This document shows, piece by piece, positions 17,401 through 57,260 of a DNA stretch of 64,000 bases. This DNA is from Oegoconia quadripuncta (Eukaryota; Arthropoda; Insecta; Lepidoptera; Autostichidae): contig OX438743.1 of NCBI GenBank assembly GCA_949316235.1, positions 42,377,242 through 42,441,241 on the forward strand, in the 5' to 3' direction. Made by a program: the position numbers and the translations under genes. The notes beneath the pieces were generated by a model, which was not told the origin of the DNA, did no database searches, and saw only the letters and a program-made list of their open reading frames with translations. The stretch's first letter is position 1. Each line of letters opens with the position of its first letter.

Positions 17401-20400
17401 CTGCCTTTGTCGATTTCCACGTCACAATAAACAATACGATGCTCATTGACGCCTTGAACTCACAAATTGGCGACGTCAAGAAAAATATAAAGATTGAAGA
17501 CACCACAGAGCATATAAGAACTACCATTATGCCATCTATTTTGCTAATAGACACAAAATGCATGAGCGTTTTCGCCGCAGACGGCAGAGAGTATATCGCA
17601 AGTATTCCGTTTCAGGTGAAAAAGATCTGGCCAATGAAATACGGTGTCTTGTTAGAAAAAGACGCAACACCTTTACTCCACAACTCTTTCCTGCCCACGT
17701 CGTTTGTTAAACTTAACGAGTCTCATAACAATAGTACGTTTTCTAAATCGAGAACGTTGAATATGAGCGCCAAGTTACGCGCGGAGTCTGTCTCCGGGTA
17801 TGATCAGGATATTCCATTGCCTACGTGTTTCTCTTTATCCCATCCTTTAGATGAAGTCACACCCATATTAATGAGATCACCATCCAATGGGTTGCAATAT
17901 TACAATGATGGCGATGTCCAAATTATATTCGTCAGTACCAACCCCAGTATTATATTGATGTATGATTGGAAATTGGGAGCGCATTCTTTATGGAAAATAC
18001 GGAAGGCGTTGCGTGATGAATGTCTTGCAATATGTCCAAATATAAATTCGACGACAACTGTCTTTAGCCAATCTTATGACTTCATTGGCAGCCCGATGCA
18101 TAGTAACACGGGCAGGAACACCACAAACTGGGTCACTGGTAGTCCGTTCCACTCTAAGAAAGGTCCTGGGACTCCAACTATGTCTCGATCGAGGATCAAC
18201 AGTCCCATGGCGAACGTATTTCATCAACAAGGCATGTCGCCTCATGCCTCCATTGGACAAGCGTCATCTAACTCCATGATGGCAAATGCTATGAATCAGG
18301 CTCCGCCAACGCTACCGCTTTACCCTGACATATGTTTAGACCACGTATGGACAGACAGCCAGACACTAAGACGTGATCCTCTTGAGAATTCTAACGACAC
18401 GAAAACCTTTTTGCACACGGATTTGGTTGGTCATGATTATTTGTGCTTTATGGTGAAAGTCGGTGGTGTTAGTAAGCTGCAGATAGTGCGGCTGCAGAAA
18501 TCCCACTCCCATGGAAACTTGTCCAAAACAAATCTGATAGTGGGGTCGATATCGACGGTGCTCGCGAAGGATGCCGTGGTCCTCGACCATTTGAAGATGA
18601 TGGCGCTGATTGACGAGTCCGGGAATATTATCCTCCAGTCTGGGAACAGCGTTGTTGGAAAGGTTAGTGATGTCTTGTTCTACTTGGCCTTGCCATAATA
18701 TTTTTGGTCAGTTTGGTGAAATTGAAAATATAAAACACCTCGTAAGACTATATCATCCACATATACCAAATTACTGTGTTAAAAGTTAAATATATTCGAA
18801 ATGGCTCCACCGATTTTCATAAAACATGGCTAATATTTTTCCTCAAGTTTAGTCTTTATGTTCGATTAATTACTTATGTGCATTTATAAAACATAATATT
18901 ATGCGTGAGAAATAAAAATTCAAAGGCATGTGAAGTCCCCAACCCGCATTGGGCCAGGTTGGTGGCCCATACTTACTTTAGTAACTTATTAGTAATCTGT
19001 GCCCATACACCGTCTTATACGAGGGGAGGTCTATATCCCTGCAGTGGGATGTTTACGTGCGTAAATTACGTGTTGCGGCTACAGGCTTCACCTAGTTGAC
19101 CATTTTTTTTTATATAAATCGCACAGCATATAATTACATTTAAAAACATTTCTTAAAATTTTGAAAGCCATATTTATGGAGATTTCTAATGTACTATTCA
19201 AATATACTCTCACTCTCAACTATCACTCTCAGCAGGGTACTCAGCTAACTTTAATGGTTTAACAGAGAAAAAAAAAGCAATATATTTGTGTTTCAATTAT
19301 TTTTTGTTTTTTTTTTCTCTGTTACTAGCTAAACACTAAGGCATTGGCTCTACAGAATTACCGTCTTATTCATAAAAAATTACAAAAACTTTATAAGCCT
19401 GTTTTAGTTATAGTGTGTTTTGTCTTTGTCATTCATAAGGAAATGTTGTAATGAAAGAAAGTGACCAAACATACTTTAACTAAAACACAGGCTTATAAAG
19501 CGTTTGTAATTTTTTTATGAATAAGAGGGTTAGTTGCTGTGTGTGAGTGAGAGAGTGTAGAATGTGGTTTGAGTATAAACTTCTTTTGAATGAATATAAT
19601 TTTGAAACGAAAAGTCAGACGACTAGATAGTCGGCTTTTTGGCGGGATCTCGGCGAGTGAAGTTGCATTTTTCTTTATAATTCTTATAATTTGTGCATTC
19701 TAACTTTTGAAGCTTAAAAATGGCAGAATATTGTGCAGCAAACGTTAGTGATGGTGTACAAGTGAATGGAAGTGTAAATTAAAGTGCGTAACGGAGCTTT
19801 CGGGTTCCCACAAGAAGCCGCCAAAATCTTTTGTAAAGCATTCTGCCACTTTACTGAAGAATGACTTGACCGTGACTAGACTCTGTATACGACGAATTAC
19901 TTGTTTTGACTGAGACTGACTTAGAAACTGAAGAAATAAGAGAAATAAAAATTTTCACTCGAAACTGGCAGTAATGTCCCCCGACAGTGAGGTTGACTGG
20001 TTGCCATCCTCAAAAATAAGAAGAAGAAGACTGGATAATCGAAGGGTTGGATGCCATAATGTAGCGGCTTGCTGCAGGTGCACGTGGGCGGCGTGCTGGC
20101 CCGGCTGCTGGACTCCCCGTACAGCAAGCGCGGCCCGTTCCAGTCGCCCTTCCCGCGGCGCAGCTCCCTGCTGCCGTCCCGCCGCGATGCTCCCCTCGAC
20201 GACTCCGCCTTGCACCTGCTGTCGCCGGTCCCGCACTCCCATCGGCGGGACGCACTAGGTATACTATTGTGATACACGTTTTATAGCACTTGACCTTAAA
20301 GATGTGATGTTAATGATGAGGCCGAAGGTGGAAGCGTACTGACCTTGAAACTCCATCTTATTTAGGTATTATTTATAACTAGCTTTCCTCCCGCGACTTC

Positions 20401-23400
20401 GTCCGCGTGGAAGATTTTATCAAAATACAAACAACAAACTTTCATCCCCTATTTTATCCCCTTGGGGGTAGAATTTATCAAAATCCTTTCTTAGCGGATG
20501 CCTACGTCATAACATCTACCTGCATGCCAAATTTCAGCCCGATCCGTCCAGTGGTTTGGGCTGGGCGTTGATAGATCACTATGTCAGTCACCTTTGAGTT
20601 ATATATATTTAGATTACCTTTAAGACTTCTCGAGTGCAGGTCAGAGCAATATTTTTGATTTATGTTGTGTTTAACTCTAAACTATCACTTGATAACAAGT
20701 TGCTAATTTATAAAACGGTACTGAAGCCCATTTGGACCTACGGTATCCAACTGTGGGGCTCCGCCTGCAATTCAAATATAATGATGGTGCAGAGGGTACA
20801 AAATAATATCCTGAAACAAATATCCAATGCACCATGGTTTATTAAGAACAAGGAGATCCACCACTACCTGGAAATTAACACAGTGAGCGAGGAGATCAAA
20901 GCTTACTCCAAATCATACAAAACCCGGCTGACAGACCATCCCAACAAGCTAGCAGTCCAGTTGACTATACCTGATAGCCTAAGAAGCCTGAAAAGACGAA
21001 TAATCCTGAACAACCTATGAATGGAAACACGAGTAGCTATATCCATTGGGGTATGCACTCTCCCGACAAAGCCCTAAGAACAAATCTGCTCATCGTCACC
21101 GACTGATCGCAGGATAAGGCCAACAAAAAAAAAAATATGTGTTTAAAAAGAAATTTGAATTTATCCAATGAGTGTGGCACACCGTCCAGTGCCACAAGAT
21201 GTCCACTGCTGAAACGCCTCCCCCAAGGATCTCCACAACGATCGGTCCTGGTCTTCCTGTACGGAATAATTCCCGAACGAGTACGACATTGGAACCTTCA
21301 AGAAGCGAGCCTACACCTTCCTCAAAGGCCGGCAACGCATCTGTGACTCTTTTGGTGTTGCGGGTGTCCATGGGCGGCGGTGATTACTTTCCATCAGGTG
21401 ACCCGCATGCTCGTTTGCCGCTCTCTCATATAAAAAAAAAAAAAAAAAAAAAAAAAACCCTCCTAATTCATTTCATGAAATTACAAAAGTTTTGTAGTGG
21501 TTTTACCTGTAAAATTTGACAGGCAATGATTTTTAGTCGCGTTGACGTAATTTCACACTTGTTACTGGAAATTTAATAAAACGAATTATTATTTCATGGA
21601 GATTTATAGCAGATCACGTTAACAAACAGGTGTGACTTATTAAATCATTGTACATTATTGCAAAGGCCGGGAAATAGGCAATTGCCATTTCCGCCGAGGC
21701 ATATATAATGCTTTTCTCAAAAGAATGCAGGGAAATAATAAATATTTAAATAACAAATCAAGACGAATTTTCAGCTTTGCCGCCGATTTTCTATTTATCA
21801 TCTGTGCCGAAAGGCAAACGCATTTACGCATACAACCACGTGAACGCAATTTGTACTAAGCAAAGAGATTTTAGTATGCCAAGAATGATAAAAGAGATCC
21901 AATCAAAGAGTATATAATAACCCCAGCACGCCGTTTCATACAACATTGCTGGAGCGTTGTAATGTTCCAAATTCAAAAAACGCTCCTACAATGGATTTAT
22001 TTTTCGCTGTCCGTAAATTAGATACTTCGCGTGTTCTTTTTTCGAAAGTAATGACAATATTTCCCATGCATGTTTAAGAAAAATGCATTTCATGTGATTT
22101 GATAACTAACATAGTCATGAAAGGTTTCAATATGAAATGGGCTTCAAACGTGCAAAGGAACGGAATTACCGTTACATAATTTTTACATGTTTTTTTATAT
22201 CGCTTGACATTGTCTTTACAACAATGCTAGCAAATTTCAAAAATATGAATCTAAGGATTCATCGTGAGCATAATTATAGCATAGGCAGAGTAAGTTCACT
22301 CTGGGCCCTATGTATAAACGGAGAGACCACATCGATATCGCGTTTTAAAAACGTACAGCGACATCTAGTACATTTTTTCAGAAACAAAATGTTTATTGGT
22401 TTGTCAGGCCTGTCTGCAATAAACACGCGCGAAAATCTTTTTGTTGGCAAAAACCAAAGAAATTGAATTGATTTTTTTTTCTTAGGAAGTTTCCCCCCAC
22501 TAATTTGGTTTTTTACAAAAAAAAATACGCCTTTATTTAATTATAGGTACGTCTATTTAAGTAGTTTAAATTTTCAAGTCAAATTCGAACCATTTCCTGT
22601 TCACGTAACGAGCTGAAATTTTGCATACTCGTCCAGTACTGATGACAATACATTTATATGATTGACATGACCTGATGCTGCAGCCAGGATCGTCTCCTCA
22701 CGAGAGGAACTCCTTAACGGTTAATAGCACGGATGCGAAATTTTGCATACACGGTTAGTTTTGATTGTTAAACATGATTTCGCCATGACCTGATGCTGCA
22801 GTCAGGATCGTCTCCTCACGAGGGGAACTCCTGAACGGTTAATAGCACGGATACGAAATTTTGCATACACGGTTAGTTTTGATTGTTAAACATGATTTCG
22901 CCATGATCTGATGCTGCAGCCAAGATCGTCTCCTCACGAGAGGAACTCCTTAATGGTTAATAGCACGGATACGAAATTTTGCATACATGGTTAGTTTTGA
23001 TTGTTAAACATGATTTCGCCATGATCTGATGCTGCAGCCAGGATCGTCTCCTCACGAGGGGAACTCCTTAACGGTTAATAGCACGGATACGAAATTTTGC
23101 ATACACGGTTAGTTTTGATTGTTAAACATGATTTCGCCATGATCTGATGCTGCAGCCAGGATCGCCTCCTCACGATGGGAACTCCTGAACGATTAATAGC
23201 ACGGTTACGAAATTTTGCATACACGGTTAGTTTTGATTGTTAAACATGATTTCGCCATGATCTGATGCTGCAGCCAGGATCGTCTCCTCACGAGGGGAAC
23301 TCCTTAACGGTTAATAGCACGGATACGAAATTTTGCATACACGGTTAGTTTTGATTGTTAAACATGATTTCGCCATGATCTGATGCTGCAGCCAGGATCG

Positions 23401-26400
23401 CCTCCTCACGATGGGAACTCCTGAACGATTAATAGCACGGTTACGAAATTTTGCATACACGGTTAGTTTTGATTGTTAAACATGATTTCGCCATGATCTG
23501 ATGCTGCAGCCAGGATCGTCTCCTCACGAGGGGAACTCCTTAACGGTTCATAGCACGGATACGAAATTTTGCATACACGGTTAGTTTTGATTGTTAAACA
23601 TGATTTCGCCATGATCTGATGCTGCAGCCAGGATCGTCTCCTCACGAGGGGAACTCCTTAACGGTTAATAGCACGGATACGAAATTTTACATACACGGTT
23701 TTTTGATTTGCTCCACTCAATTCATGAGGGACCCACCTTTCAAGCTTTTTCACCTTAACAGTTTTGTCACTAACACCGCAGCCTGCAGCTAACTCGGACG
23801 TGGCTTGCGATGGATCCGCTTCCACAATAGCCTTCAATTCTTCATTATCAACCTTGGACTCCGGCCGCCCACGGGGCTTGTTTTGCAGGTCGAAATTTCC
23901 AGAACGAAACGTTGGAACCAAAACCGCACAGTGTTTTCTTTTGCGACACCACCGCCATACACATCATTAATCCTTCGAGCCGTTTCTGCAGCACTGGTGC
24001 CACGGCGGAACTCGTACTCGTAAATAACGCGTCAGTTTTCCATTTTGTAAACTGAGTGACGCAAAGAAAAAGCCAAAGACGGAAAAAACATAATGGATTA
24101 CGGTTTTCGAAAAACAAATGCACGAGTAAATAGCTGTATAAATTTGAAATTGGAATTCCTAACCAAAGAGGAGATATTTGAGATCAAAGTGGCCCGTACG
24201 ACAAAATTTCATTTCATATGTAAGGACCTAATACTTGCCTCGCCCTCTGGTAGGTATTATAAGTCAAGTCCACACACACACTCACACTCTTCACACATAC
24301 ACATTACATCTTGCATTTTCTTTATTAATAAGTGTAATCTCTCCGTGTGGTTTTTTCACGTAAAAAGAATAGAACTCTTCACGTGGGTGTCGTAAAAGGC
24401 GATTAAGGGACTTTACACCAAAAAGATCTAGGTATAAACGTTTTAACGGCGATGGGTTCACCCCCTGTCACGTGTGCATTTCTGTATATTTCGTAAAAAA
24501 TATTTGGAACACCCAAACGCTAATGTTTGGGATATGTCTGACCGTTCCGTTGGGCCATTTTTATTCGCGAACACTAACACTATATCGTCCGATGCACGCT
24601 GTGGATCCATCTACCACATCTGTACGAATCTACGAATTATTGTGGACGTTCGTGTCGGTAGGTCTGTGCGGCGTGCTGGACGCGGCGGGGTCGCGAGTGA
24701 CGCTGGCCTTCGGGGCGCGGGGCGGGGGGGACGCGGGGAGCGCCGCGCTCTACCGCATCGCGCTGCCCGCCGCCGCCTCCGCGCCGCTCGTGGGGCGCTG
24801 CTGCCCCGCCCTGCGCGCCGCGCTGCCCCGCGACATCGCCATGCAGGTACACACACAGCTCTACCGCATCGCGCTGCCCGCCGCCGCCTCCGCGCCGCTC
24901 GTGGGGCGCTGCTGCCCCGCCCTGCGCGCCGCGCTGCCCCGCGACATCGCCATGCAGGTACACACACAGCTCTACCGCATCGCGCTGCCCGCCGCCGCCT
25001 CCGCGCCGCTCGTGGGGCGCTGCTGCCCCGCCCTGCGCGCCGCGCTGCCCCGCGACATCGCCATGCAGGTACACACACAGCTCTACCGCATCGCGCTGCC
25101 CGCCGCCGCCTCCGCGCCGCTCGTGGGGCGCTGCTGCCCCGCCCTGCGCGCCGCGCTGCCCCGCGACATCGCCATGCAGGTACACACACAGCTCTACCGC
25201 ATCGCGCTGCCCGCCGCCGCCTCCGCGCCGCTCGTGGGGCGCTGCTGCCCCGCCCTGCGCGCCGCGCTGCCCCGCGACATCGCCATGCAGGTACACACAC
25301 AGCTCTACCGCATCGCGCTGCCCGCCGCCGCCTCCGCGCCGCTCGTGGGGCGCTGCTGCCCCGCCCTGCGCGCCGCGCTGCCCCGCGACATCGCCATGCA
25401 GGTACACACACAGCTCTACCGCATCGCGCTGCCCGCCGCCGCCTCCGCGCCGCTCGTGGGGCGCTGCTGCCCCGCCCTGCGCGCCGCGCTGCCCCGCGAC
25501 ATCGCCATGCAGGTACACACACAGCTCTACCGCATCGCGCTGCCCGCCGCCGCCTCCGCGCCGCTCGTGGGGCGCTGCTGCCCCGCCCTGCGCGCCGCGC
25601 TGCCCCGCGACATCGCCATGCAGGTACACACACAGCTCTACCGCATCGCGCTGCCCGCCGCCGCCTCCGCGCCGCTCGTGGGGCGCTGCTGCCCCGCCCT
25701 GCGCGCCGCGCTGCCCCGCGACATCGCCATGCAGGTACACACACAGCTCTACCGCATCGCGCTGCCCGCCGCCGCCTCCGCGCCGCTCGTGGGGCGCTGC
25801 TGCCCCGCCCTGCGCGCCGCGCTGCCCCGCGACATCGCCATGCAGGTACACACACAGCTCTACCGCATCGCGCTGCCCGCCGCCGCCTCCGCGCCGCTCG
25901 TGGGGCGCTGCTGCCCCGCCCTGCGCGCCGCGCTGCCCCGCGACATCGCCATGCAGGTACACACACAGCTCTACCGCATCGCGCTGCCCGCCGCCGCCTC
26001 CGCGCCGCTCGTGGGGCGCTGCTGCCCCGCCCTGCGCGCCGCGCTGCCCCGCGACATCGCCATGCAGGTACACACACAGCTCTACCGCATCGCGCTGCCC
26101 GCCGCCGCCTCCGCGCCGCTCGTGGGGCGCTGCTGCCTATTCACAAAGCTGACTCTGAGGAGAACGAGAAAAAATCTCGAGCGTTACTCTTTTTAAGTAG
26201 GTTTTGGATTGCAACGTGTAATTCGACAAAACAAGGAAAAAAAATATAATTACACTGAATAGCGGTCTATTTCCGTGCTTATAAGCAAGCACGCACGGAT
26301 AAATAGTCAAAAAAATTATAATAGCCTTTTGTAAATTTCTGTTTCACGGTGGTGTTTAATTTATTTAAAGGTAAAACGTATACATTGTCCCTTAAGTGAC

Positions 26401-29400
26401 TTTGTTTAACGACTGACCAAAGCAGCATCAAATAACCACTGTGTATCTCCAAGGTAGAAAACTCTTTCAGGGTTAATCTCCCCTTGGTACATTTTTTGTA
26501 CAATGCCTATTTGTGTAACAGTTGTCTGTACAATAAAGATATTAAAGATTAGACATATTGACTAACGAACACTAACTTGTTTTTCAGGTCATAATTAAAT
26601 GGTACGGCGTTCGAAACGCGCCTGGCACTCAAGACCTCACACCAGAACATGAGTGGTCAATGTTCTCCAAGCTGCTCCTCTCTCTCATCGGCTACGATGT
26701 CGAGAAACTATCCCAGCCCAAACACAACGACGACCAAATCGAAGGTGAAGTAGCCACGAAGAAGCAAAGGACTTCAAGCGACGGCACTCAAGACGACTGG
26801 GATTACCTCTTAAACTCGAAACTGCATAAAGTAATTGGTAATTCTCTGGCGGCCATGTTGAATCTGAATCATGTGACATCGGAAACTAGGCAGAGGGTTT
26901 GGAAATCGAGTAGCAACGAGGACATGGAGAAGCAAAGTCAGTTCAATACAAACTGTTTGCTATTCCCTTATACGATACAAGTGCTGTTCGCTTTCCATTT
27001 AGTGTATGAAGAGACTAAACTGAATACGCTTTTGTCAAGCGATCTGGAGCCGCTTGCGAAATTCCTGTACCAGATCGCCAAGGATTTGCGTCTGAAGAGC
27101 TACGTGAATCATTATTGGTTGGATTTCCCTACGGACTTCAGCTTGGAGTTTAGTGAGGATGACTCGCAGATGTCCGACGAAGTCCTGAAGAAGCTGTGTG
27201 AACCGACGTACTTCAGTGCTGAACCACCAAATGTGTTTAGTTATTTAAATTCGATGATGAACGACGTTGATGTCGGATTGTATCCGCATTTGACCGACGT
27301 TAATAACACGTCGAGGGATCTTATCGAGGTACGTACTATGATTATCTTCTATCGTGGTCGCCCTACACATTCCCGCTGGTGGTATACAGCCACCTCTCAC
27401 TTCCGATTATCCATTTTTTTTTAGTTTATTTATCCATAAACAGATTATTTCAATAATCTTCATTAGAAGACGCCTACGAAAACCTACATAATAAATGTGC
27501 GAAACCAAATAAATAAATATTTCGGACACGTACACCAATCATCTAGTCCCAAACTAAGCAAGGCTTGTGCTATTAATACTAGATAACGGATAAACATACA
27601 TAAATATTTATATAAACATCCGTGACTCGGGAATAAATGTACGTATTCGTCACACAAACATTTGCCCCTCGCGGGATTCGAACCCGCAACCGTTGGTTTC
27701 GCTGACAGGGTCACTATCTACTACACCAGCCGGTCGTCAAAATAAACATGTGTCTCTCCCACGAAATGAAATTTGTTGGAAAGGCACTTCCTACACAGAT
27801 CCATCCGTAAAGTACATTGTATTAAATTTGTAATGTGAACTGTTCGCCAGATATTCTCCATCGTGGGGTGCGGGCGGGGCGCGGGGGTGCAGAGCGTGGC
27901 GGGGCGGGACGGGGTCGGCGCCAGCAGCACCCCGCGCCGCCCCGCGCCGCTGCCGCCCTGCTGGCTCGCCGTGCTGCGGGCTCACCACGCGGGTACGGCG
28001 CCGGCTCACCCTCCGCCCTCTGCTGTCCCCCTCCGCCCTCTGCTGTCACCCTCCGCCCTCTGCTGTCACCCTCCGCCCTCCGCCCTCTGCTGTCGCCCTC
28101 CGCCCTCTGCTGTCACCCTCCGCCCTCCGCCCTCGCTGTCACCCTCCGCCCTCTGCTGTCACCCTCCGCCCTCCGCCCTCTGCTGTCACCCTCCGCCCTC
28201 CGCCCTCGCTGTCACCCTCCGTCCTCTGCTGTCACCCTCCGCCCTCCGCCCTCTGCTGTCACCCTCCGCCCTCTGCTGTCACCCTCCGCCCTCTGCTGTC
28301 ACCCTCCGCCCTCTGCTGTCACCCTCCGCCCTCTGCTGTCACCCTCCGCCCTCTGCTGTGTCCCCCTCTGCCCTCTGCTGTCACCCTCCGCCCTCTGCTG
28401 TGTCCCCCTCTGCCCTCTGCTGTGTCCCCAACCGCCCTCTGCTGTGTCCCCAACCGCCCTCTGCAGTGTCACCAACCGCCCTCTGCTGTGTCCCCAACCG
28501 CCCTCTGCTGTGTCCCCAACCGCCTTCTACTGTGTCACCAAGCGCCATCTACTGTATCACCAACCGCCCTTTAATATAACACACATTTTGTCACAAACCA
28601 AAAAAAAGAACACTGTAATAATGTTATATAAACACCCTGGGTTTTACAGAAGGAAATCTTTTAATCATAATTTTTCTATGCATTCCTAGGACAATTTACA
28701 TAAGATGAAATATTGCTCACTACGTATTCCAGGCATGACCCCTCGCGACATCGGCAACCTGCCGCCTGCCATAGGCCTCTTCCTGCTGTCCGTGTTCATG
28801 CGCTGCAAGGGCGAGCCGCCGGTGGACTGGCCGAGGGAGGCCTACCGCCTCATCATGCGGGAGGACCTGGCGTTGCAGGCGGAGATGGCCGAAAGTGGGG
28901 ATGCGGCTACGGAGTTTATGGAATGTGAGGACAACTTTGTTGTAGATTTTGCTGAAACAATTAACGCTCCTCCGTTGTCAATACTTTGAATGTATGCACG
29001 GAGCGGGCTACACGGTAGAAATCTAACTAATATTATAGACTAGCTTTCCGCCCGCGTGTTCGTCCGCGTGGTAAATTTCATCGAAATCGATTCAGCAAAA
29101 AAAATTGCCTATATTTGACGGCCTGTTTGGTGTAGTGGTTAGCAACTCTGCTGCTATACCAAAAGGTCGCGGGTTCGAATCCCGCTAGGGGCATATGTTT
29201 GTATGATGAATACAGACACGTGTTCCCGAGTTATGGATGTTTTTCATTTATATGTGTATTTATTTACAAAAAAAAAAATGTATTTGTGTAGTTCATCAAC
29301 CATCTGGTATCTATAATACAAGCCTAGCTGCTTAGTGTGGAACTAGATGGCGCTGTGTGTATGTGCAAAGATATTTATTATTTATTTATATGTTAATCCA

Positions 29401-32400: not shown

Positions 32401-35400
32401 CAGATGTGACCCCTGAGTGATACCCGATGGGATACATCTTGACCGATAACCTTTGAATGCAACTGTCTGACTACATTTACTAATGTAGGATTCGTTCCAC
32501 GTTAGAAAGTCATCGTGTATACCGACTATCGATAGCTTTTTGATCAATTTAGATCGATTTATTTTATCAAATGCTGTATTAAAATATGGTCTCGTGTGTT
32601 TTTTGGCACGGGAAAACTAGAACCAACGTATTTCTTCCCGTGAATGTCCTTAATGGCCACTAAGGGAATTTACACCAAACAACATCTACAGATTTGCACG
32701 TTTTAACGGTTCTGGACTCGGCCACTGGCACATGTGTATATTTCTAAAGGTGAACCTTGGATGTTGTTTACAGCATTAAACTTTAATGTTTGGAAAACCT
32801 AAACGTTTATCCTCATTTTCCTGCCCTTCTCCCACTCTAGGTGGGATCAGCCCTACATGTCTTCCACTTTCCAATTCTGACCACGCCATTTAATGTAAAG
32901 GTTGTGACGTTATGACGTAATTCATCACCATCATCCGCTAATACATTAATATTGAGAGGGGCACGTAGCAATATGAAACCAATATTAGTAGATATCACGA
33001 ATCAATAAGTAATTGTGAAATTTCACGTGTAGACAGAAACGAGGAACAAAAATTTACTTCCTGTACGGTTTACGTACAAGTTACTTTCATTTGTGCTGCG
33101 CTTGCGCCCTACTTTTGGCATATAAACAAAAGGACAGTCGACGAAATTACGCCATTCCAATCGGTCACAATTAGCTATCCAAACATAGTAATTTATGTAA
33201 GAACCTTTTGCTCAAAATTCGGGTGTGTCAACTCTACTAGTCTTAAACTTATAACTAAATCTCTTCTAATGTAACTACCTAACTACTCCGAAGACATCCA
33301 CATTATGTGACAATGGGCCGCCAAAGAAATTTTTGGCTCCGAGCACGTTTCTTCTTCTTATTATTTTTGAGGATGGCAACCAGTCAACCTCACTGTCGAG
33401 GGACATTACTGCCAGTTTCGAGTGAAAAATGTTATTTCTCTTATTTCTTCATTTTATAAGTCAGTCTCAGTCAAAACAAGTAATTCGTCGTATACTTGGC
33501 GTATACAGAGTCTAGTCACGGACAAGTCATTCTTCAGTAAAGTGGCAGAATGTTTTAAAAAATATTTTGGCGGCTTCTTGTGGGAACCCGAAATCTCCGT
33601 TACGCACTTTAATTTACACTTCCTTTCACCTGTACACCGTCACTAACGTTTGCTGCACAATATTCTGCCATTATTAAGCTTCAAAAGTTAGAATGCACAA
33701 ATTATAAGAATTATAAAGAAAAATGCAACTTCACTCGCCGAGATCCCGCCAAAAAGCCCCGGGCACGTTTAATCGTCTCGATTACGACATTCTGGGGGGT
33801 ATGGCATGGTGTGTACACGGCGCCGTGTGCCGGCAGGGGCATGGTGTCGCTGCGCTCGCTGCCCGTGTGCGCGACGGAGCCGCTGCGCGCGCCGCGGGTG
33901 TGCGTGGCGGGGCGCGGGCCCCCCCCGCGGCGGCAGGCCGTGGCCCCCCCGCCCGACTCGCCCGCCGCGCTGGCCTGGCCCGCCTTCCACAACGGGGTGG
34001 CCGCCGGCCTCGCCTCCACCGGCGCCGGCATCGACCCCGCCTGGCTCAGCTACAACAGGCCTCGGGTGAGTCACTGGCTCGGTGGGCGTGTCAATGAGTT
34101 GCTGCTACATAACGAGCGCATATTATTAATGCACGCTCATTTTACACATTGCTTTCCTCTCCCATGGTGGGACCGAGGAACCGAAGGAAGTTCTTAATAA
34201 TGAGCATGAGCATAATGCTGAGTCAAAAAAAAAAATAAAAAAAAAATCAAAAATGTTTTTATTTCGTAAGTTATAAGAATAACATTTGAAATCGTCATGA
34301 CATACAGTTATCGCTCATTCACTAGGCAGTCTCCCCAGAGAAGAACGAGCAAGAAACTCCAGGGTTGCTCTTTTTAAATAAGTCAATACAAATACAATTT
34401 GAGATACCTAATTGTAAAATTTATGATTCGACAAAGAAAATAAGAATAAAATATACTGGATAATGGCGAGCGGTTCATGTCCACGCATTCTTATCATCCA
34501 GATAGTCAGAAATTTTATAATAGCCTTTGGCACATAGTTTCCGTTTAATGGTTGTTTTAAATTTATTTAAACGCAAATTTTGAATGTCTACCGGAACCTT
34601 ATTGTAAAAGCGTATACATTGTCCCTTGAATGACTTAGTAACTTTGTGTAAGCGACTGCTATGGACAGCAAGTTTATTTTTATATCTTGTATTAAAACAT
34701 TGTGTATTTCACAATTTTTCCTAAACAAATACAGATTCGTTCTTACGTACATTAAGTTTTCGTAAATATATTGCGATGCCAAAGTTAATATATTGATTTC
34801 TTGAAATTTATTCCTCAGAGATACTCGGGAGCCTAACTTGTAGATCGCACGAACCGCTCGCTTCTGCAGAACAAAAATACAATTTATGTCCGCGGCATTT
34901 CCCCGTAACAGAATGCCATAAGCCAGTACCACTCTTCTTAGCCACAGTGGCACACAAAGTTTTTTGTGTTTATCTTTATATGTTTAACCGCCTTTGTGGC
35001 TCATTGTAAACAACATAGGGTTTACGAATCGGCGGGTTCGGTACATGTTTACTACTCGGTTTGGTTGTTGGTAGGGCATTTTAAATGTCCGCCTGGCTAG
35101 CTACCATAATATTGTCTAAATCTGCCGCCAAACAGCAATGTTAATAGCATTGTTGTGCTCCGGTTGTCAGAGATAAGATAGCCAATTCCCCAAATATTTG
35201 GGTTTCCAGATTAGTACGCTTCCACCTTCGGCCTTATTTCACTTAACATCAGGTGTAATTGAGGTCAAGTACTAACCCGTTGTGCATAAAAAAAAGTTTG
35301 TTCTTTTTAATGTTTTATATGTTAAGTTTGTTTTGTATATTTAGTGTGTGCCCACTTGTGACGAATAAACTGTTTTCTTTCTTTCAGTCGCTTAGCGTAA

Positions 35401-38400
35401 GAGTGAATGAGTTGGTGAGCATGTGAGTGAGTGGGTGCGTGTCAAGTGAAAGTCAAAAATGCTTTATGTTGTATGTACCCAGAGTACACTTAAAATAGTC
35501 AATTTTTCAATTTTTTTAAGCTAATGCTTGTTCGAAATGCAATTTTCCCCTGAGAAGAACAAGCAAGAAACTCGGGGGGTTGCTTTTTTAAAAACAGGCT
35601 TTGATTTTATGAAATTACCTGGCATGCGAACGATCTGATTATGTCCAGGGATGATTATCATCTAAGCAGTCTGATATTTTATAATATGCTATGTGTGAGT
35701 GAGTTGGTGAGCGGGAGAGTGAATGACTTGGTGCGTGTGTGTGTTTATGAATACACATGCAGTGTGTGTGAACTTTTCACATGAACCGCTCGAAACATAA
35801 ATTGTAATACTACTTGAAATGAGTAACCGTTGAGTGTCTTGTTCAATTTTTTCGAAAGAAATGTAACATTTTCAAGAGATATATTTCTATTCCATGAAAA
35901 AGAGATCATATTCGATTATGAAAAATGTTCAAGATGCGTGCCTAGTTACTTTGAATGCTTCCGTATTTAGTTTTGTATGATTGTATGGTACAGGGCTCAA
36001 CGGAGATGTCGACGGAGCACGCGGGGTTCCTTCTGGCGCTGGGTCTCAATGGGCACCTGCGAGATATGCCCTTCATGCACATCTACGAGTACCTCGTCAA
36101 ATGCAACGAGATGATAAGCGTGGGTCTCCTGCTTGGGCTCGCTGCCACATACAGAGGTTTGTTTACTTCTGTCGTAAATTAATTTTGCAAAAACTACAGA
36201 GGCATTAAGCCCAGCTAAGCCCAGCGTAGAGGCGCCTATCACACAATCCTTACATGATTTCGATTCCAAAATGTAGTTAAAACTGTTTCAGGTACAATGG
36301 ACGTCCAAGCAACGAAGATGATGAGCATCCACCTGGCTCCACTCCTGCCGCCCACCTCAATCGAACTGGACATCCAGCAGAACATTCTTGTGGCCGCATT
36401 GATGGGCGTGGGCCTACTCTACCAGGGGACCAACCACTCGCACTACGCCAGAGTGCTGCTTGATGAGATAGGTTTGTATATACGAAATCAAATTCACATT
36501 GTAGAATACAAGAACTCAAATTTTTGGAACATTTTTTACTGATATCCGGTTTAGGGTAATGACAATTTCAAATGCTACTCCAGCAGAAGCAGAATTTATA
36601 CAAAAGACAAATGTTTCAAGTTATACTGAAGGAAAATGTTAAAAGTTGTCCTGAGCAATAGAGTTCCACCGTGTTAATCCTCAAAACTATTGTTAAAACA
36701 TTTAAATCTCTGAATTAAACGAACACTGAGGATCTGTATAGTTTATCGGTACGGTTGGTAAACTCTGTTGTAACTTTACTAGCTCCCCTTCTGACAAATA
36801 CGTTTAATACATTTATTGAGAACGGAATCCTTCCAGATGTAATGAAATTTAGTAAAGTATTCTCATTGTTTAAATCTGGTGCACAAGGACCCGTGTAACT
36901 TATACCAGGGTCTGTTCCTCCAGTGTTTAGTAACGTTTTTGAAAAAATTAGGTTAACGCAAATGCTTTCCTATTTTAATATGAAAAACCTGTACCAACGA
37001 CAGCTGTTTGGTTTTACCAAGGAAAGAAATACTTTTGATGCTGATGCGAGAGTTAACCTGATCAAGTGCATTTTTGAGACTTGGGAATGCTCAAAAATAC
37101 GATTGGTGTTTTTGCAATCTTTCAAGGGCGTTTGATTGCGTTGATCCATTATCCCAAAACATTACTAATGAAATTGAAGCATTGCGATCAAAAATAACAG
37201 CCTTATCATGATCCAATCATTTTTAGAAAATGGAATATAAAAGTGAGGTTAAGCGTACCGCAGGGCTTACTCTTTTCTGTTTCTAGGTAAGATAAGTGAT
37301 GTTTGTCACACGTATGCATATCGAAGTTTGCATATACACAGTCGGATCATAAGTTTTATCACAACCTTACTATTTTCAAATTTCAAATATTAAGCAGAAA
37401 TGTTTCGATTGACATTTTTTTTTATGCACAACGGTTTAGCACTTGATCTCAACACACCTGATGTTAAGTGAAGATGAGGTCGAAGGTGGTAGCGTACTGA
37501 CCCGGAAACCCAACTTTGAATTTGGAACTTTGAATAAAAAACAATATTATTTTACTCCATTTTCAAATATAGAGTTATCTCATATTATCGCATAGTTTCC
37601 GTTTATACAACTAATTAGTTAGATTATGGATATAGACAAGAAATAAGAAAGGCCCGAGAATTGAGCCCTGTGGAATACCTATTCAAACTGGACACCCTGA
37701 CGACCTATTACCATTGACATCAACCCTTTGAACTCGATTACATAAGTACGATTCCGGCCCATAATGCCATAATGACCTGATGAACGCAATCAAAAGTCTT
37801 GGACAGATCACAGACTGGGGACGTGTAAGGATGGTGACGATTACGGTACTATAATAATAATAAATAAATATTTCGGACACTTACACCAATCATCTAGTCT
37901 CAAACTAAGCAAAGCTTGTGCTATGGATACTAGATAACGGATAAACATACATAAATATTTACATAAACATCCGTGACTCGGGAATAAATGTTCGCATTCA
38001 TCACACAAACATTTACCCCTCGCGGGATTCGAAACCGCAACCGTTGGTCACTCCACTACACCGAGCGGTCGTCAATATACTACCAGTGAATATAGTAACC
38101 AACTACAGAGGTGTTCCCTTAGGCAAGCCGGCCGGGCCCGAGCTGGAGAGCTGCGTGGAGCGCGAGGGCTACGCGCTGGCGGGCGGGCTGGCGCTGGGCC
38201 TGGTGTGCGCCCGCGCCCGCCCGCCGCGAGCCGCGCCCGCGCTGCGCCGCTACATGCTGGGCGGGGAGCGCCCGCGCCCCGGTACTCTACATTCTTCCTC
38301 TTATTTTTGAGGATGGCAACCAGTCAACCTCACTGTCGAGAGACACTACTTCCAGTCTCGAGTGAAAAATTTTAGTTCTCTTATTTCTTCAGTTTGTAAG

Positions 38401-41400
38401 TCAGTCTCGGTCAAAACAAGTAATTCGTCGTATACAGAGCCTAGTCGCGGTCAAGTCATTCTTCAGTAAATTGGCAGAATGCTTTACAAAAGATTTTGGC
38501 GGCTTCTTGTGGGAACCCGAAAGCTCCGTTGAGCACTTTAATTTACACTTCCTTTCACCTGTACACCAACACTAACGTTTGCTGCACAATATTCTGCCAT
38601 TATTAAGCTTCAAAAGTTAGAATGCACAAATTATAAGAATTTTAAAGAAAAATGCAACTTCACTCGCCGAGATCCCGCCAAACAGCCAAGGGTGTATATA
38701 CATTAATAGATTAATTTTTCCAACCGTTCTCTGATTGCAATGTAAATAATGTTTTTTATTTTTTATTAAGTTTGTAAGGGCAAAGGGTTTCCGCCTTTGT
38801 CCTACGGATCGCTAACTCGTGATCGCGACGCGAATACCGTGTCACGAGCCGCCTTCTTGGTTGGGCAAATGTAGGAAATTAATAATTTGTTAAAATGTAA
38901 AATATAATGTTTAATAAACTTGTAAATTCAAAATAATAATGTTGTATAAAATAATGTTAAATGTTAATTAATTAAGTAATGTTGTTCTTGCTCGAGTTGG
39001 TTGAGACAACTGGGTTTTAGGCTGTTTCTAGCCGAGCCGAGGCGCCGCGGCGTCAGCGCGTTTACCTAATTTGGGTTACACGCGCGTTGCCGGCCCGGCC
39101 AAAGTGCAGCATAATGTACGTTGACCGTACAAAGTTTAAGTAGGTTCTATCAGTGGAAACCTCTAATTGGCTTTCAGTTTCTTAGTTTAAGTGATACTTT
39201 CTAAAACAGCTGTTGGTTTTCCCAAGAAAATAAAATAAAATAACAAGACCAAAAAGCAGTGGTCTCAATATGGACCCTTGTGGAACTCCAGGTGGAATAT
39301 AAACGGGATCATACATTTAGTACTACCGACTGAGTATTTTATATACCGATTTTTTATATATGAAGAGAACCAAGTGTACAAATCACCTCGAATGCACAGA
39401 GCGTTTCTAGAGAAGAATGCAGTAGTCTATTCCGTCAAATGCTTTGCTGTAGTTCGTGTAAACTGTATCTACTTGGCTTCCACTATCCATACCAGATAAA
39501 TGTTTCTCAATGAACATAATAAAAAAATTACAGTGAACTTACTTAGTAAAAATCGTGTTGATGTTTTTTTTTATTTTTTTTTTTGGTTTATCTAGAACCA
39601 AACTAAGAAGAGCTTGGGCTACGGATAACGGAAAAACATACATAAATATTTATACTTATTTATATTCCTTTGACATTTCTATATTCCCTTGTATTATTTT
39701 GATGATTAATTGTTATTAATTTTACCACTAGCTAAATTATGTATTGCTATGTTTTCTAACTGGATTTGTAACTATCAAAACTAGTACTAGTTCTTTTCTA
39801 CAAAAATTTATTGTTGTTAACATGTGATTAATTGTTATGCATGCTGATTATCTTTATATGAGACTTTAATATAGTCCAATATTTGCACGTCATTGTAATG
39901 ACTGAATTAGGCGGATATTATTGTAACAACACCTAATCTAATGTACCCTATTCAAGAGCAAATAAATCATATTCTATTCTATTCTATGAACATCCATGAA
40001 TCGTATTCATCATTCGAACATTTACCTGCAAATACTGGCTTCGCAGGCATGGTCACTCCCCACTACAATCGGTCGTCAAGTACACAAATCCTTGAGACGT
40101 TACTGTAACAAAAAAAAATTGGATCGGTTTAATTGGGGCAGACAGACTTTTCACCGTGATAGTGACCTCGAACGCAGAGTGACCGTGTGGGTGCGTGATG
40201 CAGGCACCCAGCGCGAGAAGTGCAAGGCCGGCTCGCTGGGCGTCCGCGAGGGGGCGGCCGTGAACCTGGACGTGACGTCACCGGGCGCCACGGTGGCGCT
40301 GGGGCTCATGTTCCTGCGCTCCAACGACGCGGCCGTGGCCCGCTGGCTCACGCCGCCCCACACCGCCTACCTGCTGGACTACGTGCGCCCCGACCTGCTC
40401 ATGCTGCGGGTCATCGCCAAGGGTCAGTCTCCTCTCCTCCCCCCCTCCCCCCTCCCCCCCTCCTCGCCTCGCCTAGCAGCCGATAAATTCCGACATATTT
40501 ATGATATGTGTACGATCTAGCAATTGTACATTTAATACAAACGCATCAATTTGACACGCGGCCATTTCCCCTTTACGTAATTTAAGCCAGTTCACATCAA
40601 AACGCCCTTACGATCGCACCGCGGCACGTGGACTCATTATCATAGCATTTTATCAGTTTACTTGTTAATTGGTGATTAAATCAATATATTGGACAGCAGA
40701 CTATCAATTATCATCATCATCATCTTACTGTATGGTTTAGCACCGTACAATATGGTTTGTTATGAAAATAGATAAAAACCAGACGGTACTGTAGGCACGA
40801 GGACAGTGGTTGTAAGGCGTGCGTGCTGTGAATAGGGGTTCAGATTGCTGGCGACCATCAAAGAAGACGCACCGTTACCTAACGTTCTACATACAGTCGT
40901 GTAAGTGACGCTGATAATAAGTAACGCACTATCGTTGATCATGGAATTTGAGCAGGACGGATCGTAGATTACTCTTTTATTTTGGATAACAACAGCTAAC
41001 ATTACATTAATTTACAACAAATAGTTTTTTTTTTTTTTTTTATATGAGAGGGCGGCAAACGAGCATGCGGGTCACCTGATGGAAAGCAATCACCGCCGCC
41101 CATGGGCACCCGCAACACCAAAAGGGTCACAGATGCGTTGCCGGCCTTTGAGGAACTTTACTTGTCAAACAGCCACAACAGTTATCCACTACTTAAATAA
41201 AACAGACAATTTGTTGTTGAGAGAAACATCTGATACACAAAGCTTTGTAGAAAGTAAGCTGCAATTATACAAATCAAGATAAGTATATATAATAAGTAAG
41301 AAGAAATATACATAAATGAATGAGTATACATTAATCAATATAAATAAATACAAAAATCTTAGTCTAAATGAATCCCATGCATGCATGCGAGGGCCAAGTT

Positions 41401-44400: not shown

Positions 44401-47400
44401 TAAATATGGCCGCTATGCCAGGTAAAAAAAACGCCGCGACGGCACGAACACTTGGATCGCAATGGCGGACGTTCAATCCGCTCCTGCGCGCTGTCTATGC
44501 TAGCTGGGGAAACAAAGAGTAGAACCGCGATCCCAAATTGGCACAATATATTGGCGATTTGTTGACAACGTTACACAACACGCTTCACCTGTAGCTGCAG
44601 AACATAGTGATGACTCTTTGGTAAAAGCGATCACGTTGCAGATAATGGCGGGCCGCGGCGACGTGGTGGTGCTGCGCGCCTGTCGCCGCCTGCGCGCGCG
44701 CACCGCCCCCCTCCCCGCCGCGCCGCCCCCCCACGCGCTGTCGCACGGCGGGCAGGTAGGTGCCCCCCCCGCCCGCCCCGCCCCCCTCCCCGCCGCGCCG
44801 CCCCCCCACGCGCTGTCGCACGGCGGGCAGGTAGGTGCCCCCCCCGCCCGCCCCGCCCCCCTCCCCGCCGCGCCGCCCCCCCACGCGCTGTCGCACGGCG
44901 GGCAGGTAGGTGCCCCCCCCGCCCGCCCCGCCCCCCTCCCCGCCGCGCCGCCCCCCCACGCGCTGTCGCACGGCGGGCAGGTAGGTGCCCCCCCCGCCCG
45001 CCCCGCCCCCCTCCCCGCCGCGCCGCCCCCCCACGCGCTGTCGCACGGCGGGCAGGTAGGTGCCCCCCCCGCCCGCCCCGCCCCCCTCCCCGCCGCGCCG
45101 CCCCCCCACGCGCTGTCGCACGGCGGGCAGGTAGGTGCCCCCCCCGCCCGCCCCGCCCCCCTCCCCGCCGCGCCGCCCCCCCACGCGCTGTCGCACGGCG
45201 GGCAGGTAGGTGCCCCCCCCGCCCGCCCCGCCCCCCTCCCCGCCGCGCCGCCCCCCCACGCGCTGTCGCACGGCGGGCAGGTAGGTGCCCCCCCCGCCCG
45301 CCCCGCCCCCCTCCCCGCCGCGCCGCCCCCCCACGCGCTGTCGCACGGCGGGCAGGTAGGTGCCCCCCCCGCCCGCCCCGCCCCCCTCCCCGCCGCGCCG
45401 CCCCCCCACGCGCTGTCGCACGGCGGGCAGGTAGGTGCCCCCCCCGCCCGCCCCGCCCCCCTCCCCGCCGCGCCGCCCCCCCACGCGCTGTCGCACGGCG
45501 GGCAGGTAGGTGCCCCCCCCCGCCCGCCCCGCCCCCCTCCCCGCCGCGCCGCCCCCCCACGCGCTGTCGCACGGCGGGCAGGTAGGTGCCCCCCCCGCCC
45601 GCCCCGCCCCCCTCCCCGCCGCGCCGCCCCCCCACGCGCTGTCGCACGGCGGGCAGGTAGGTGCCCCCCCCGCCCGCCCCGCCCCCCTCCCCGCCGCGCC
45701 GCCCCCCCACGCGCTGTCGCACGGCGGGCAGGTAGGTGCCCCCCCCGCCCGCCCCGCCCCCCTCCCCGCCGCGCCGCCCCCCCACGCGCTGTCGCACGGC
45801 GGGCAGGTAGGTGCCCCCCCCGCCCGCCCCGCCCCCCTCCCCGCCGCGCCGCCCCCCCACGCGCTGTCGCACGGCGGGCAGGTAGGTGCCCCCCCCGCCC
45901 GCCCCGCCCCCCTCCCCGCCGCGCCGCCCCCCCACGCGCTGTCGCACGGCGGGCAGGTAGGTGCCCCCCCCGCCCGCCCCGCCCCCCTCCCCGCCGCGCC
46001 GCCCCCCCACGCGCTGTCGCACGGCGGGCAGGTAGGTGCCCCCCCCGCCCGCCCCGCCCCCCTCCCCGCCGCGCCGCCCCCCCACGCGCTGTCGCACGGC
46101 GGGCAGGTAGGTGCCCCCCCCGCCCCGCCCCCCTCCCCGCCGCGCCGCCCCCCCACGCGCTGTCGCACGGCGGGCAGGTAGGTGCCCCCCCCCGCCCGCC
46201 CCCCTCCCCGCCGCGCCGCCCCCCCACGCGCTGTCGCACGGCGGGCAGGTAGGTGCCCCCCCCGCCCCGCCCCCCTCCCCGCCGCGCCGCCCCCCCACGC
46301 GCTGTCGCACGGCGGGCAGGTAGGTGCCCCCCCCGCCCCGCCCCCCTCCCCGCCGCGCCGCCCCCCCACGCGCTGTCGCACGGCGGGCAGGTAGGTGCCC
46401 CCCCCGCCCCGCCCCCCTCCCCGCCGCGCCGCCCCCCCACGCGCTGTCGCACGGCGGGCAGGTAGGTGCCCCCCCCGCCCCGCCCCCCTCCCCGCCGCGC
46501 CGCCCCCCCACGCGCTGTCGCACGGCGGGCAGGTAGGTGCCCCCCCCGCCCCGCCCCCCTCCCCGCCGCGCCGCCCCCCCACGCGCTGTCGCACGGCGGG
46601 CAGGTAGGTGCCGCCCCCCTCCCCGCCCCCCTCCCCGCCGCGCCGCCCCCCCACGCGCTGTCGCACGGCGGGCAGGTAGGTGCCCCCCCCCGCCCGCCCC
46701 GCCCCCCTCCCCGCCGCGCCGCCCCCCCACGCGCTGTCGCACGGCGGGCAGGTAGGTGCCCCCCCCGCCCGCCCCGCCCCCCTCCCCGCCGCGCCGCCCC
46801 CCCACGCGCTGTCGCACGGCGGGCAGGCACACCGCTATCTCGTCTCCACACTCCTCCGAATATAACTCCTATAAGCTGGGATCTACAGTGGTACACGACC
46901 TAGCGCCTACTGAAGGTCGACGGTACCCTTCGTGACTCTGTTGCTACTTCGGACCTCTCTGACTAATTAAAAAAAGAAATAAGGCATATAAGTAGCAGTG
47001 GATATCCAGTGTCCGATATTATTATAGTAACATTTCTGCCCATCCCCAGATGGCGGTGCACAGCACGGTGGGGCTGCTGTTCCTGGGCGGCGGGCGGGCC
47101 ACGCTGGGCACGTCCCCGGGCGCGGTGGGCGCGCTGCTGGCCGCCTTCTACCCAAAGTTCCCCACGCACAGCGAGGACAACAGGTGCTGCACCATAACCA
47201 CTGCTAACTGCATCACTATACTCTGTGAACACTTTATAACACAACTTTCAAATAGGTTATATACAAATGATTTTCAAAAATGTTCTATGTAGGGTGAAAT
47301 GAAATTCGTGTAATTCATGATTATGAACAACTTTACCCTAGGAACAATAGCCGAATTCGATCAAAAGTATTCTGAAACTGGTGTTTTCAGAATGGTATAC

Positions 47401-55793: not shown

Positions 55794-56380
55794 TACCGGG
55801 AGGAGACCACAGGGTACAGGACTAGATCGAAGTGTCTTGGGGACTGTCAGTGTTGAGGTTCCGTGGATTACAGACCACCTACCCCCCTAGACTTGAAATG
55901 AGAAAAAAATTTTTTTTTTAATTTATTCTCCAACAATGTCGGAAGACAACGGATCTAAGCCCGTACAGCCTAGTCTACATAATGCTTTTCGGAAGATTTT
56001 GGCAGCTTCTTGTGGGAACCCGTAAGCTTCATCGCACACTTTAATTTAAACTTCCCGTCAATTGTTCACCATCACAGACTTTTGCCGTACAATATTCTGC
56101 GGTTGTTAAACTTTAAAACTCAGAATGCACCAAATTTCAAGAAATAAAGACAAAAATGCAACGTCTCTCGCTGAGTTTCCGCCAAAAAGCCCTAGACTCC
56201 TAATGGCAGGCAAGCATCTATCGACCCAGCAGGAAAATAGAACAGATGCTCAAAAACTTCTATTCAATTATTGGTTAGTCAAATAGTAGTTGGTCAGATA
56301 GAGAATAGTCAAATTATTGCACTCTGATTGGCTCTGTCAAGGTCACGTAAATAACAACCTTGGTCCAATTGGAACTACTT
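55794..56380 (+). other. ANAPC1 3' flank with element K copy 4
   Basis: 55981-56192 is a partial element K (GCTTCTTGTGGGAACCCG, ACAATATTCTGCGGTTGTTA, GCCAAAAAGCCCTAGAC). The first AATAAA after the stop codon lies inside it at 56143-56148. 56208-56380 is the left part of the unclassified element also seen at 3610. The true cleavage site is not placed. Confidence 0.55.
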
Positions 56381-57260
56381 GACAATTCGGCACATTAAAT
56401 AAAACATGCCCCACCTCCCTCACCTCAGCTAGTAAACAAGTCGGTACATTAAATAAAACATGCCCCACCTCCCTCACCTCAGCTAGTAAACAAGTCGGTA
56501 CATTAAATAAAACATGCCCCACCTCCCTCACCTCAGCTAGTAAACAAGTCGGTACATTAAATAAAACATGCCCCACCTCCCTCACCTCAGCTAGTAAACA
56601 AGTCGGTACATTAAATAAAACATGCCCCACCTCCCTCACCTCAGCTAGTAAACAAGTCGGTACATTAAATAAAACATGCCCCACCTCCCTCACCTCAGCT
56701 AGTAAACAAGTCGGTACATTAAATAAAACATGCCCCACCTCCCTCACCTCAGCTAGTAAACAAGTCGGTACATTAAATAAAACATGCCCCACCTCCCTCA
56801 CCTCAGCTAGTAAACAAGTCGGTACATTAAATAAAACATGCCCCACCTCCCTCACCTCAGCTAGTAAACAAGTCGGTACATTAAATAAAACATGCCCCAC
56901 CTCCCTCACCTCAGCTAGTAAACAAGTCTGTACATTAAATAAAACATGCCCCACCTCCCTCACCTCAGCTAGTAAACAAGTCGGTACATTAAATAAAACA
57001 TGCCCCACCTCCCTCACCTCAGCTAGTAAACAAGTCGGTACATTAAATAAAACATGCCCCACCTCCCTCACCTCAGCTAGTAAACAAGTCTGTACATTAA
57101 ATAAAACATGCCCCACCTCCCTCACCTCAGCTAGTAAACAAGTCGGTACATTAAATAAAACATGCCCCACCTCCCTCACCTCAGCTAGTAAACAAGTCGG
57201 TACATTAAATAAAACATTCCTCGCCTCCCTCACCTCGTTGACAATTCGGTACATTAAATC
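56381..57260. repeat. 54-bp tandem array, 16 copies plus a degenerate one
   Basis: ATTAAAT recurs at 56394 and every 54 bases to 57204, then once more at 57253. The unit contains TACATTAAATAAAACATGCC, CCACCTCCCTCACCTCAGCT and AGTAAACAAGTCGG. Because 54 is 18 codons, a spurious long frame is open on the - strand. Each unit carries AATAAA on the + strand. The array lies inside the element shared with 3610-3875. Confidence 0.96.

Follow-up and report, generated by a model that had tools for sequence, protein, structure and literature searches.

A 1995 paper on an interferon-induced gene is said, by its title, to describe a minisatellite that provides multiple splice donor sites; the gene is reportedly 6-16 (IFI6), with a repeat unit of about 12 nt. 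Closely spaced tandem donors form a separate class, the GTNNGT type, in which sites compete a few nucleotides apart, and in one model of intron gain a piece of exon sequence with splice-site motifs is duplicated in tandem. Intron gain by tandem genomic duplication is the subject of PMC4974935 and PMC2891723. Tandem repeats also lie at exon-intron boundaries of human genes within segmental duplications, where they can be spliced out or kept; in PMC2812944, these are recent paralogues whose repeat units average 30 bp in four copies. The choice between duplicate donors has been studied in transfected minigenes (PMC9225289). Where the introns on either side measured 365 nt and the exon had two identical strong donors, splicing went exclusively to the upstream one. 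A pair of weak donors led to skipping of larger exons, and smaller exons kept the upstream donor. The same source places the transition to exon definition at an intron length of 200–250 nt and cites classical in vitro work in which the downstream donor was preferred under intron definition.

In a 64,000-nucleotide window (the whole stretch of DNA that was analysed) from the moth Oegoconia quadripuncta, the gene ANAPC1 carries two minisatellites that each contain the end of an exon together with its donor, and a third that begins just past another donor. Exons are numbered by our gene model, whose exon 5 is exon 6 of an earlier, sequence-only reading of this DNA; a slash in a donor motif marks the exon-intron boundary.

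24662 to 24846, plus strand: ANAPC1 exon 5, 185 nt, ending ...LPRDIAMQ (spliced comparison with P0001; HMMER match to PDB APC1 chains)
24747 to 26137, plus strand: array 1, a 111-bp unit repeated perfectly 12 times and followed by 58 bases of a further copy (TRF, periodicity)
24847 to 26073, plus strand: 12 identical donors CAG/GTACAC, at 24847, 24958, 25069, 25180, 25291, 25402, 25513, 25624, 25735, 25846, 25957 and 26068
26588 to 27328, plus strand: ANAPC1 exon 6, joined in frame to donor 1 (spliced comparison, conserved junction)
27851 to 27992, plus strand: ANAPC1 exon 7, very GC-rich, with donor CGG/GTACGG at 27993 (spliced comparison)
28006 to 28570, plus strand: array 3, a C-rich minisatellite of 20/22/44/73-bp periods that starts 13 nt beyond the donor of exon 7, so that this donor lies outside it
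44642 to 44755, plus strand: ANAPC1 exon 19, ending ...PHALSHGGQ (spliced comparison; matches Pectinophora ...PAHALTHGGQ)
44695 to 46827, plus strand: array 2, a 75-bp unit (variants 71, 72 and 76) in 28.8 copies by TRF, spanning the exon 19 donor
47050 to 47183, plus strand: ANAPC1 exon 20, which has family length at the junction when spliced to donor 1 of array 2 (spliced comparison)

By title, the 1995 interferon-induced case is alike in that a tandem array supplies multiple splice donors. Arrays 1 and 2 follow that type in starting inside an exon (at 24747 and 44695) and running into the intron, and donor sites are present in 12 of 12 full units of array 1 and in 28 copies of array 2. The ANAPC1 units differ in being 111 (or 75) bp long and mostly exonic, and they lie in a conserved essential gene that has two such arrays; moreover, the use of several donors is claimed in the 1995 title, whereas the ANAPC1 donors are known from sequence alone. 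Lying 111 nt apart, the donors of array 1 fall outside the closely spaced GTNNGT-type class. The human boundary repeats of PMC2812944 are likewise minisatellite-class repeats at an exon-intron boundary, but the ANAPC1 arrays are of 111 bp × 12 and 75 bp × 28, sit in a conserved gene and occur twice within it. With intron gain by tandem duplication the arrays share the tandem copying of exon sequence that carries splice-site motifs, but in ANAPC1 an existing intron seems to have been lengthened, and a new intron is not evident. The minigenes of PMC9225289 resemble this locus in that identical donors compete at one exon and the introns are long enough for exon definition; they differ in that they carry two engineered donors in cell transfections, whereas moth ANAPC1 has 12 and 28 natural donors. 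Among the titles and abstract openings listed in searches of open-licence literature, no lepidopteran donor-spanning array was found. The ANAPC1 array looks structurally like known boundary repeats and differs from them in unit size, in the gene and in the doubling in one gene.

The identification of the gene as ANAPC1, made in the sequence-only reading, was borne out by tblastn, in which three lepidopteran ANAPC1 proteins used as queries placed it from 10531 to 55790 in the window, by spliced comparison with the Pectinophora protein (P0001), and by HMMER matches of PDB APC1 chains to two sets of roughly joined exons (5, 6 and 8; 19, 20, 22 and 23). When three pieces of the protein were compared with Pfam, one matched Apc1_MidN, one matched APC1_3rd and one had no match. 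The corrected model is near-complete, with 24 introns, 2081 aa and a stop codon at 55793; the first donor is taken in both array 1 and array 2, and the resulting 2081-aa frame reaches this stop codon with no internal stop. The model begins after the start codon, about the first 8 residues lying outside it, and one more 5′ exon is likely to lie upstream. With the Pectinophora protein as guide, a search for splice sites gave 23 of the 24 introns, and the remaining one was set manually; for exon 23, five of five references tried agreed on a donor at 52239. Introns longer than 250 nt make up 23 of the 24. In a tree of 26 ANAPC1 rows, built from a shorter, uncorrected window protein (exon 23 donor at 52113, Pectinophora as the only guide), the window protein groups with those of Hyposmocoma, Pectinophora and Phthorimaea at a support of 94 (not starred), so that the moth probably belongs to the gelechioids. 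No same-species ANAPC1 transcript or protein appeared among the matches listed for the 413-match protein search and the exon-junction query, the latter giving 17 matches with best identities of 70–71%, none of them from the same species.

The unit of array 1 consists of the last 99 nt of exon 5 followed by 12 intronic bases, GTACACACACAG. Between 24748 and 26079, each of the 12 full units matches the first with 0 mismatches, an exact 111-base period holds from 24747 to 26137, the 13th copy stops after 58 bases, and TRF reports 12.5 copies at 100% match; this perfect repetition is far beyond chance, and the description of a 111-bp unit present 12 times with a cut 13th copy stands as it was first given. 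So does the statement that each unit recreates CAG/GTACAC, as this motif occurs once in each of the 12 full units, at positions that follow 24847 + 111k. On the left the array is flanked by single-copy exon, GAGCGCCGC, and on the right by intron, TATTCACAAAG; exon 6 starts at 26588 after TTTTTCAG. When donor 1 is joined to exon 6, the junction equals that of Pectinophora without a gap and the APC1 PDB chains align through the same point, in agreement with the earlier claim that the next exon fits the first copy at family length. Donors 1–12 are all in frame and stop-free, adding 0 to 407 aa at 37 aa per copy, and the arithmetic confirms that reading through to the last donor would insert 11 × 37 residues in frame (407 aa, no stop). 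Exon 5 follows an intron of 4403 nt and precedes one of 520–1741 nt, depending on the donor; use of donor 12 would stretch the exon from 185 to 1406 nt and leave the 520-nt intron. As a sign of coding, the open frame is weak evidence, because five of the six frames are stop-free across the array. Likewise, the chance that a unit length is divisible by 3 is 1 in 3.

The sequence-only reading had treated this case implicitly as unique, and this did not hold: a second donor-spanning array occupies 44695–46827, and an intronic array lies 13 nt past a third donor. In array 2 the repeated piece runs from the last part of exon 19 across the donor CAG/GTAGGT, which is present in 28 copies; the last partial copy ends in CAGGC. 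Its donor 1 gives a family-length junction, as in Pectinophora. Donors 1–11 and 20 (of 28) rejoin exon 20 in frame without a stop, donors 22–28 all carry a stop (23, 26 and 27 though in frame by length), and apart from these three and donor 20, all of donors 12–28 shift the frame. The frame is lost after donor 11 because the unit length drifts (75, 71, 72, 76), and such drift is expected of later copies that are untranslated. In terms of consensus matches (of 9), the 24 donors of the gene score 8 in 3 cases, 7 in 7, 6 in 8 and 5 in 6; the array 2 donor, at 8/9, is among the three best, and the array 1 donor, at 6/9, is middling. RNA structure marks out no single copy in the 120-nt windows at donors 1, 2 and 12 of array 1, which are identical and do not fold better than shuffled sequence (z 0.38), and two windows of array 2 folded with z of -0.51 and 0.64 against shuffles.

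Other repeats are found in and around the gene. A 118-bp minisatellite of 8.9 copies occupies 22666–23708 in intron 4 and is followed, at about 23660–23960, by a minus-strand open frame that is transposase-like in appearance; downstream of the last ANAPC1 exon, a 54-bp minisatellite of 15.8 copies (98% match) occupies 56382–57236. A transposon-like repeat of about 400 bp occurs at 38292–38687 (plus), 19633–20028 (minus), 33352–33758 (plus) and 55978–56191 (plus), with 79–95% identity to the copy at 38292. Three of these four copies are close to a splice site, possibly by chance or by insertion preference: one starts 10 nt past the donor of exon 14, and the other two precede acceptors, by about 50 nt at exon 4 and by about 80 nt at exon 11.

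It is informative to examine the exon 5/6 junction in homologous proteins. Among 60 ANAPC1 records (P0001–P0060, from 413 matches), 58 have a readable junction: P0001–P0037, with 34 named Lepidoptera, and P0040–P0060, with P0038 (partial) and P0039 (Plutella) giving no junction row. Over the 85 residues compared, all 58 lack an inserted copy at the junction, and therefore donor 1 gives the normal protein. The Plutella prediction (P0039) leaves the family sequence precisely after DVTMQ (DVTMQ/VCWLY), and this departure at the same residue suggests that the exon 5/6 intron predates array 1.

Similar events may have occurred at other exons. Repeated 8-mers are present in 9 of 257 ANAPC1 records (257 listed of 567 matches: 413, 17 and 137). 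In Phthorimaea operculella (P0028), the exon 11 end ASWVLYNKPR is present in three copies, and two of these run straight into VS, the translation of GTGAGY, as expected of a donor-containing repeat; a query with exon 11–12 fragments found no near-identical record among the matches listed (of 137), the best having 64% identity over the query. In isoform X2 of Bacillus rossius (P0098), the exon 14 start RPPGPEMENSVDRESYSLAAGL recurs about 17 times in three frames (5 + 8 + 4 matches), and isoform X1 of the same organism (P0079) has a normal exon 14 region; the repeat looks like an acceptor-spanning array. Part of exon 4 is present in two copies in Plutella P0039, and Homalodisca vitripennis isoform X3 (P0087) has a two-copy repeat, GYTRRDLTVLPA, at residues 913–940, 15 residues apart and near the start of exon 8. 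Of the nine, P0028, P0039 and P0098 served as leads; P0087 was set aside, as were P0061 (11-residue repeats) and P0066, P0077, P0083 and P0105, with one or two repeated words each. Taken as leads and not as proof, the predicted ANAPC1 proteins of a few other insects thus hint at splice-site-spanning arrays at other exons.

The location of the arrays within ANAPC1 follows GC content. Among the 24 exon ends, that of the array 1 exon ranks 4th in GC, that of the array 2 exon 2nd and that of the array 3 exon 3rd; the chance that three arrays fall within the top four is 0.002, a post hoc figure, as the arrays were noticed before the test was chosen. Exon ends with a GC of 0.72–0.87 are those of exons 4, 5, 7, 11, 14, 15, 19 and 20, the remaining ones having 0.39–0.67. 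The most GC-rich of the 24, the end of exon 14, has no array, which counts against the GC account. Random placement gives a post hoc probability of about 0.0075 for two of five arrays having a donor in the first unit and, also post hoc, 0.001 for three of five arrays starting between -100 and +20 of a donor. Of the GC-rich 100-mers in the window, 33% hold a donor and 44% lie wholly within an exon; when placement is restricted to GC-rich sequence, the co-location of arrays and donors has a modest post hoc probability of 0.11, and a special signal for it was set aside at that value. An array inside an exon would alter the protein, but as long as donor 1 is used, a donor-containing array would leave it unchanged. 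Donor-spanning arrays would need no special device, because GC bias together with loss of exon-internal arrays would yield them, and GC-driven birth with a filter against exon-internal arrays may explain the pattern with no dedicated function.

We think it probable that a GC-rich minisatellite at an ANAPC1 exon end was recently amplified or homogenised to give array 1, and that it is tolerated as intronic, with donor 1 dominant. The repeat would have originated at the 3′ boundary of a GC-rich exon, its unit including the 5′ splice site by happenstance, and array 2 would have arisen likewise at another GC-rich exon end. In the simplest history, a piece of the exon was copied just past the donor, leaving two direct repeats around the splice site that expanded by unequal exchange; we infer this copy-then-expand order because array 1 ends in a partial copy. 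Definition of exon 5 would span its 185 nt, starting at the 3′ splice site that precedes it. Dominance of donor 1 is predicted because the flanking introns are long (520 nt even for donor 12), favouring exon definition; the middling donor CAG/GTACAC (6/9) counts against this part of the reading, as do the minigenes' limitation to two donors in transfected cells, the skipping of their larger exons with weak donors, and the downstream preference under intron definition. With donor 1 in use, all later copies would be intronic, hidden from purifying selection on the essential protein and presumably neutral, and their donors would be decoys with occasional use at most, each copy read through adding 37 aa in frame. 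Our expectation is that donor 1 is used heavily and that in-frame readings of donors 2 or 3 are rare. The butterfly mutation rate is near 3e-9 per generation, and because the copies of array 1 do not differ at any of some 1,280 repeated bases, its expansion or homogenisation is likely to be recent, below about one million generations.

The perfect frame-keeping of array 1 could also be read as selection, and one can imagine a functional device that varies the length of APC1 by 0–11 in-frame 37-aa cassettes, perhaps by tissue or stage. That 12 of 12 donors are intact, in frame and stop-free fits such a device, as does the 1995 title, which reportedly concerns a minisatellite giving multiple splice donor sites in a transcript; however, five of six frames are open from composition alone, array 2 in the same gene is out of frame after donor 11, and 0 of the 58 readable homologue junctions has an insertion. 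We therefore regard this device as quite unlikely, and the same three observations disfavour a coding repeat under selection. The earlier suggestion that the cell must choose among 12 equal donors holds for their sequence, which is identical, but not for their position, since exon definition is expected to favour the upstream donor (PMC9225289). Chief use of the intron-proximal donor 12, with an APC1 insertion of about 407 aa, would agree with the preference of intron definition for the donor nearest the 3′ splice site (Reed and Maniatis, as summarised in PMC9225289). Yet it demands a 1406-nt exon, its intron at 520 nt is still over the 200–250 nt transition given in that source, and the insertion would interrupt a conserved stretch of an essential subunit; we consider it highly unlikely.

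It is also worth considering that the copy number of array 1 might be an assembly artefact, the true allele having one or few copies. Twelve identical GC-rich copies are hard to assemble, but array 1 is merely 1.39 kb with clean, unique flanks, and the length variants of array 2 fall in an ordered map that resembles real minisatellite turnover, so that an artefact has little likelihood. The splicing of copies to each other through ACACACAG, which would add 33-residue cassettes, had been raised in the sequence-only reading, and it is correct that GTACACACACAG ends in AG and that the frame permits such joins. As an acceptor, however, this AG is preceded by 14 nt of which 6 are pyrimidines, a count as low as in the two poorest among the 24 acceptors of the gene, and a second AG lies 12 nt upstream; such splicing seems extremely improbable. 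A broader proposal is that splice-site-spanning minisatellites form a recurrent, self-shielding class in GC-rich insect exons: the repeat would bring its own splice site, so that the exon-definition rule would conceal each new copy in the intron, and in this gene the shield would leak, giving APC1 with 0–11 cassettes that vary with allele copy number. We hold this proposal to be doubtful.

With 12 and 28 identical donors in one housekeeping gene, this moth's ANAPC1 provides a natural series in which to study how a 5′ splice site is chosen, a rule that PMC9225289 examined with two engineered donors. Whichever donor of array 1 is taken, the message can still be translated, and its use should escape masking by nonsense-mediated decay; therefore ordinary junction reads would give the full donor distribution. 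The reading of array 1 as a minisatellite tolerated within an intron also suggests why some coding-exon minisatellites may expand freely: those that carry a splice site would be removed with the intron.
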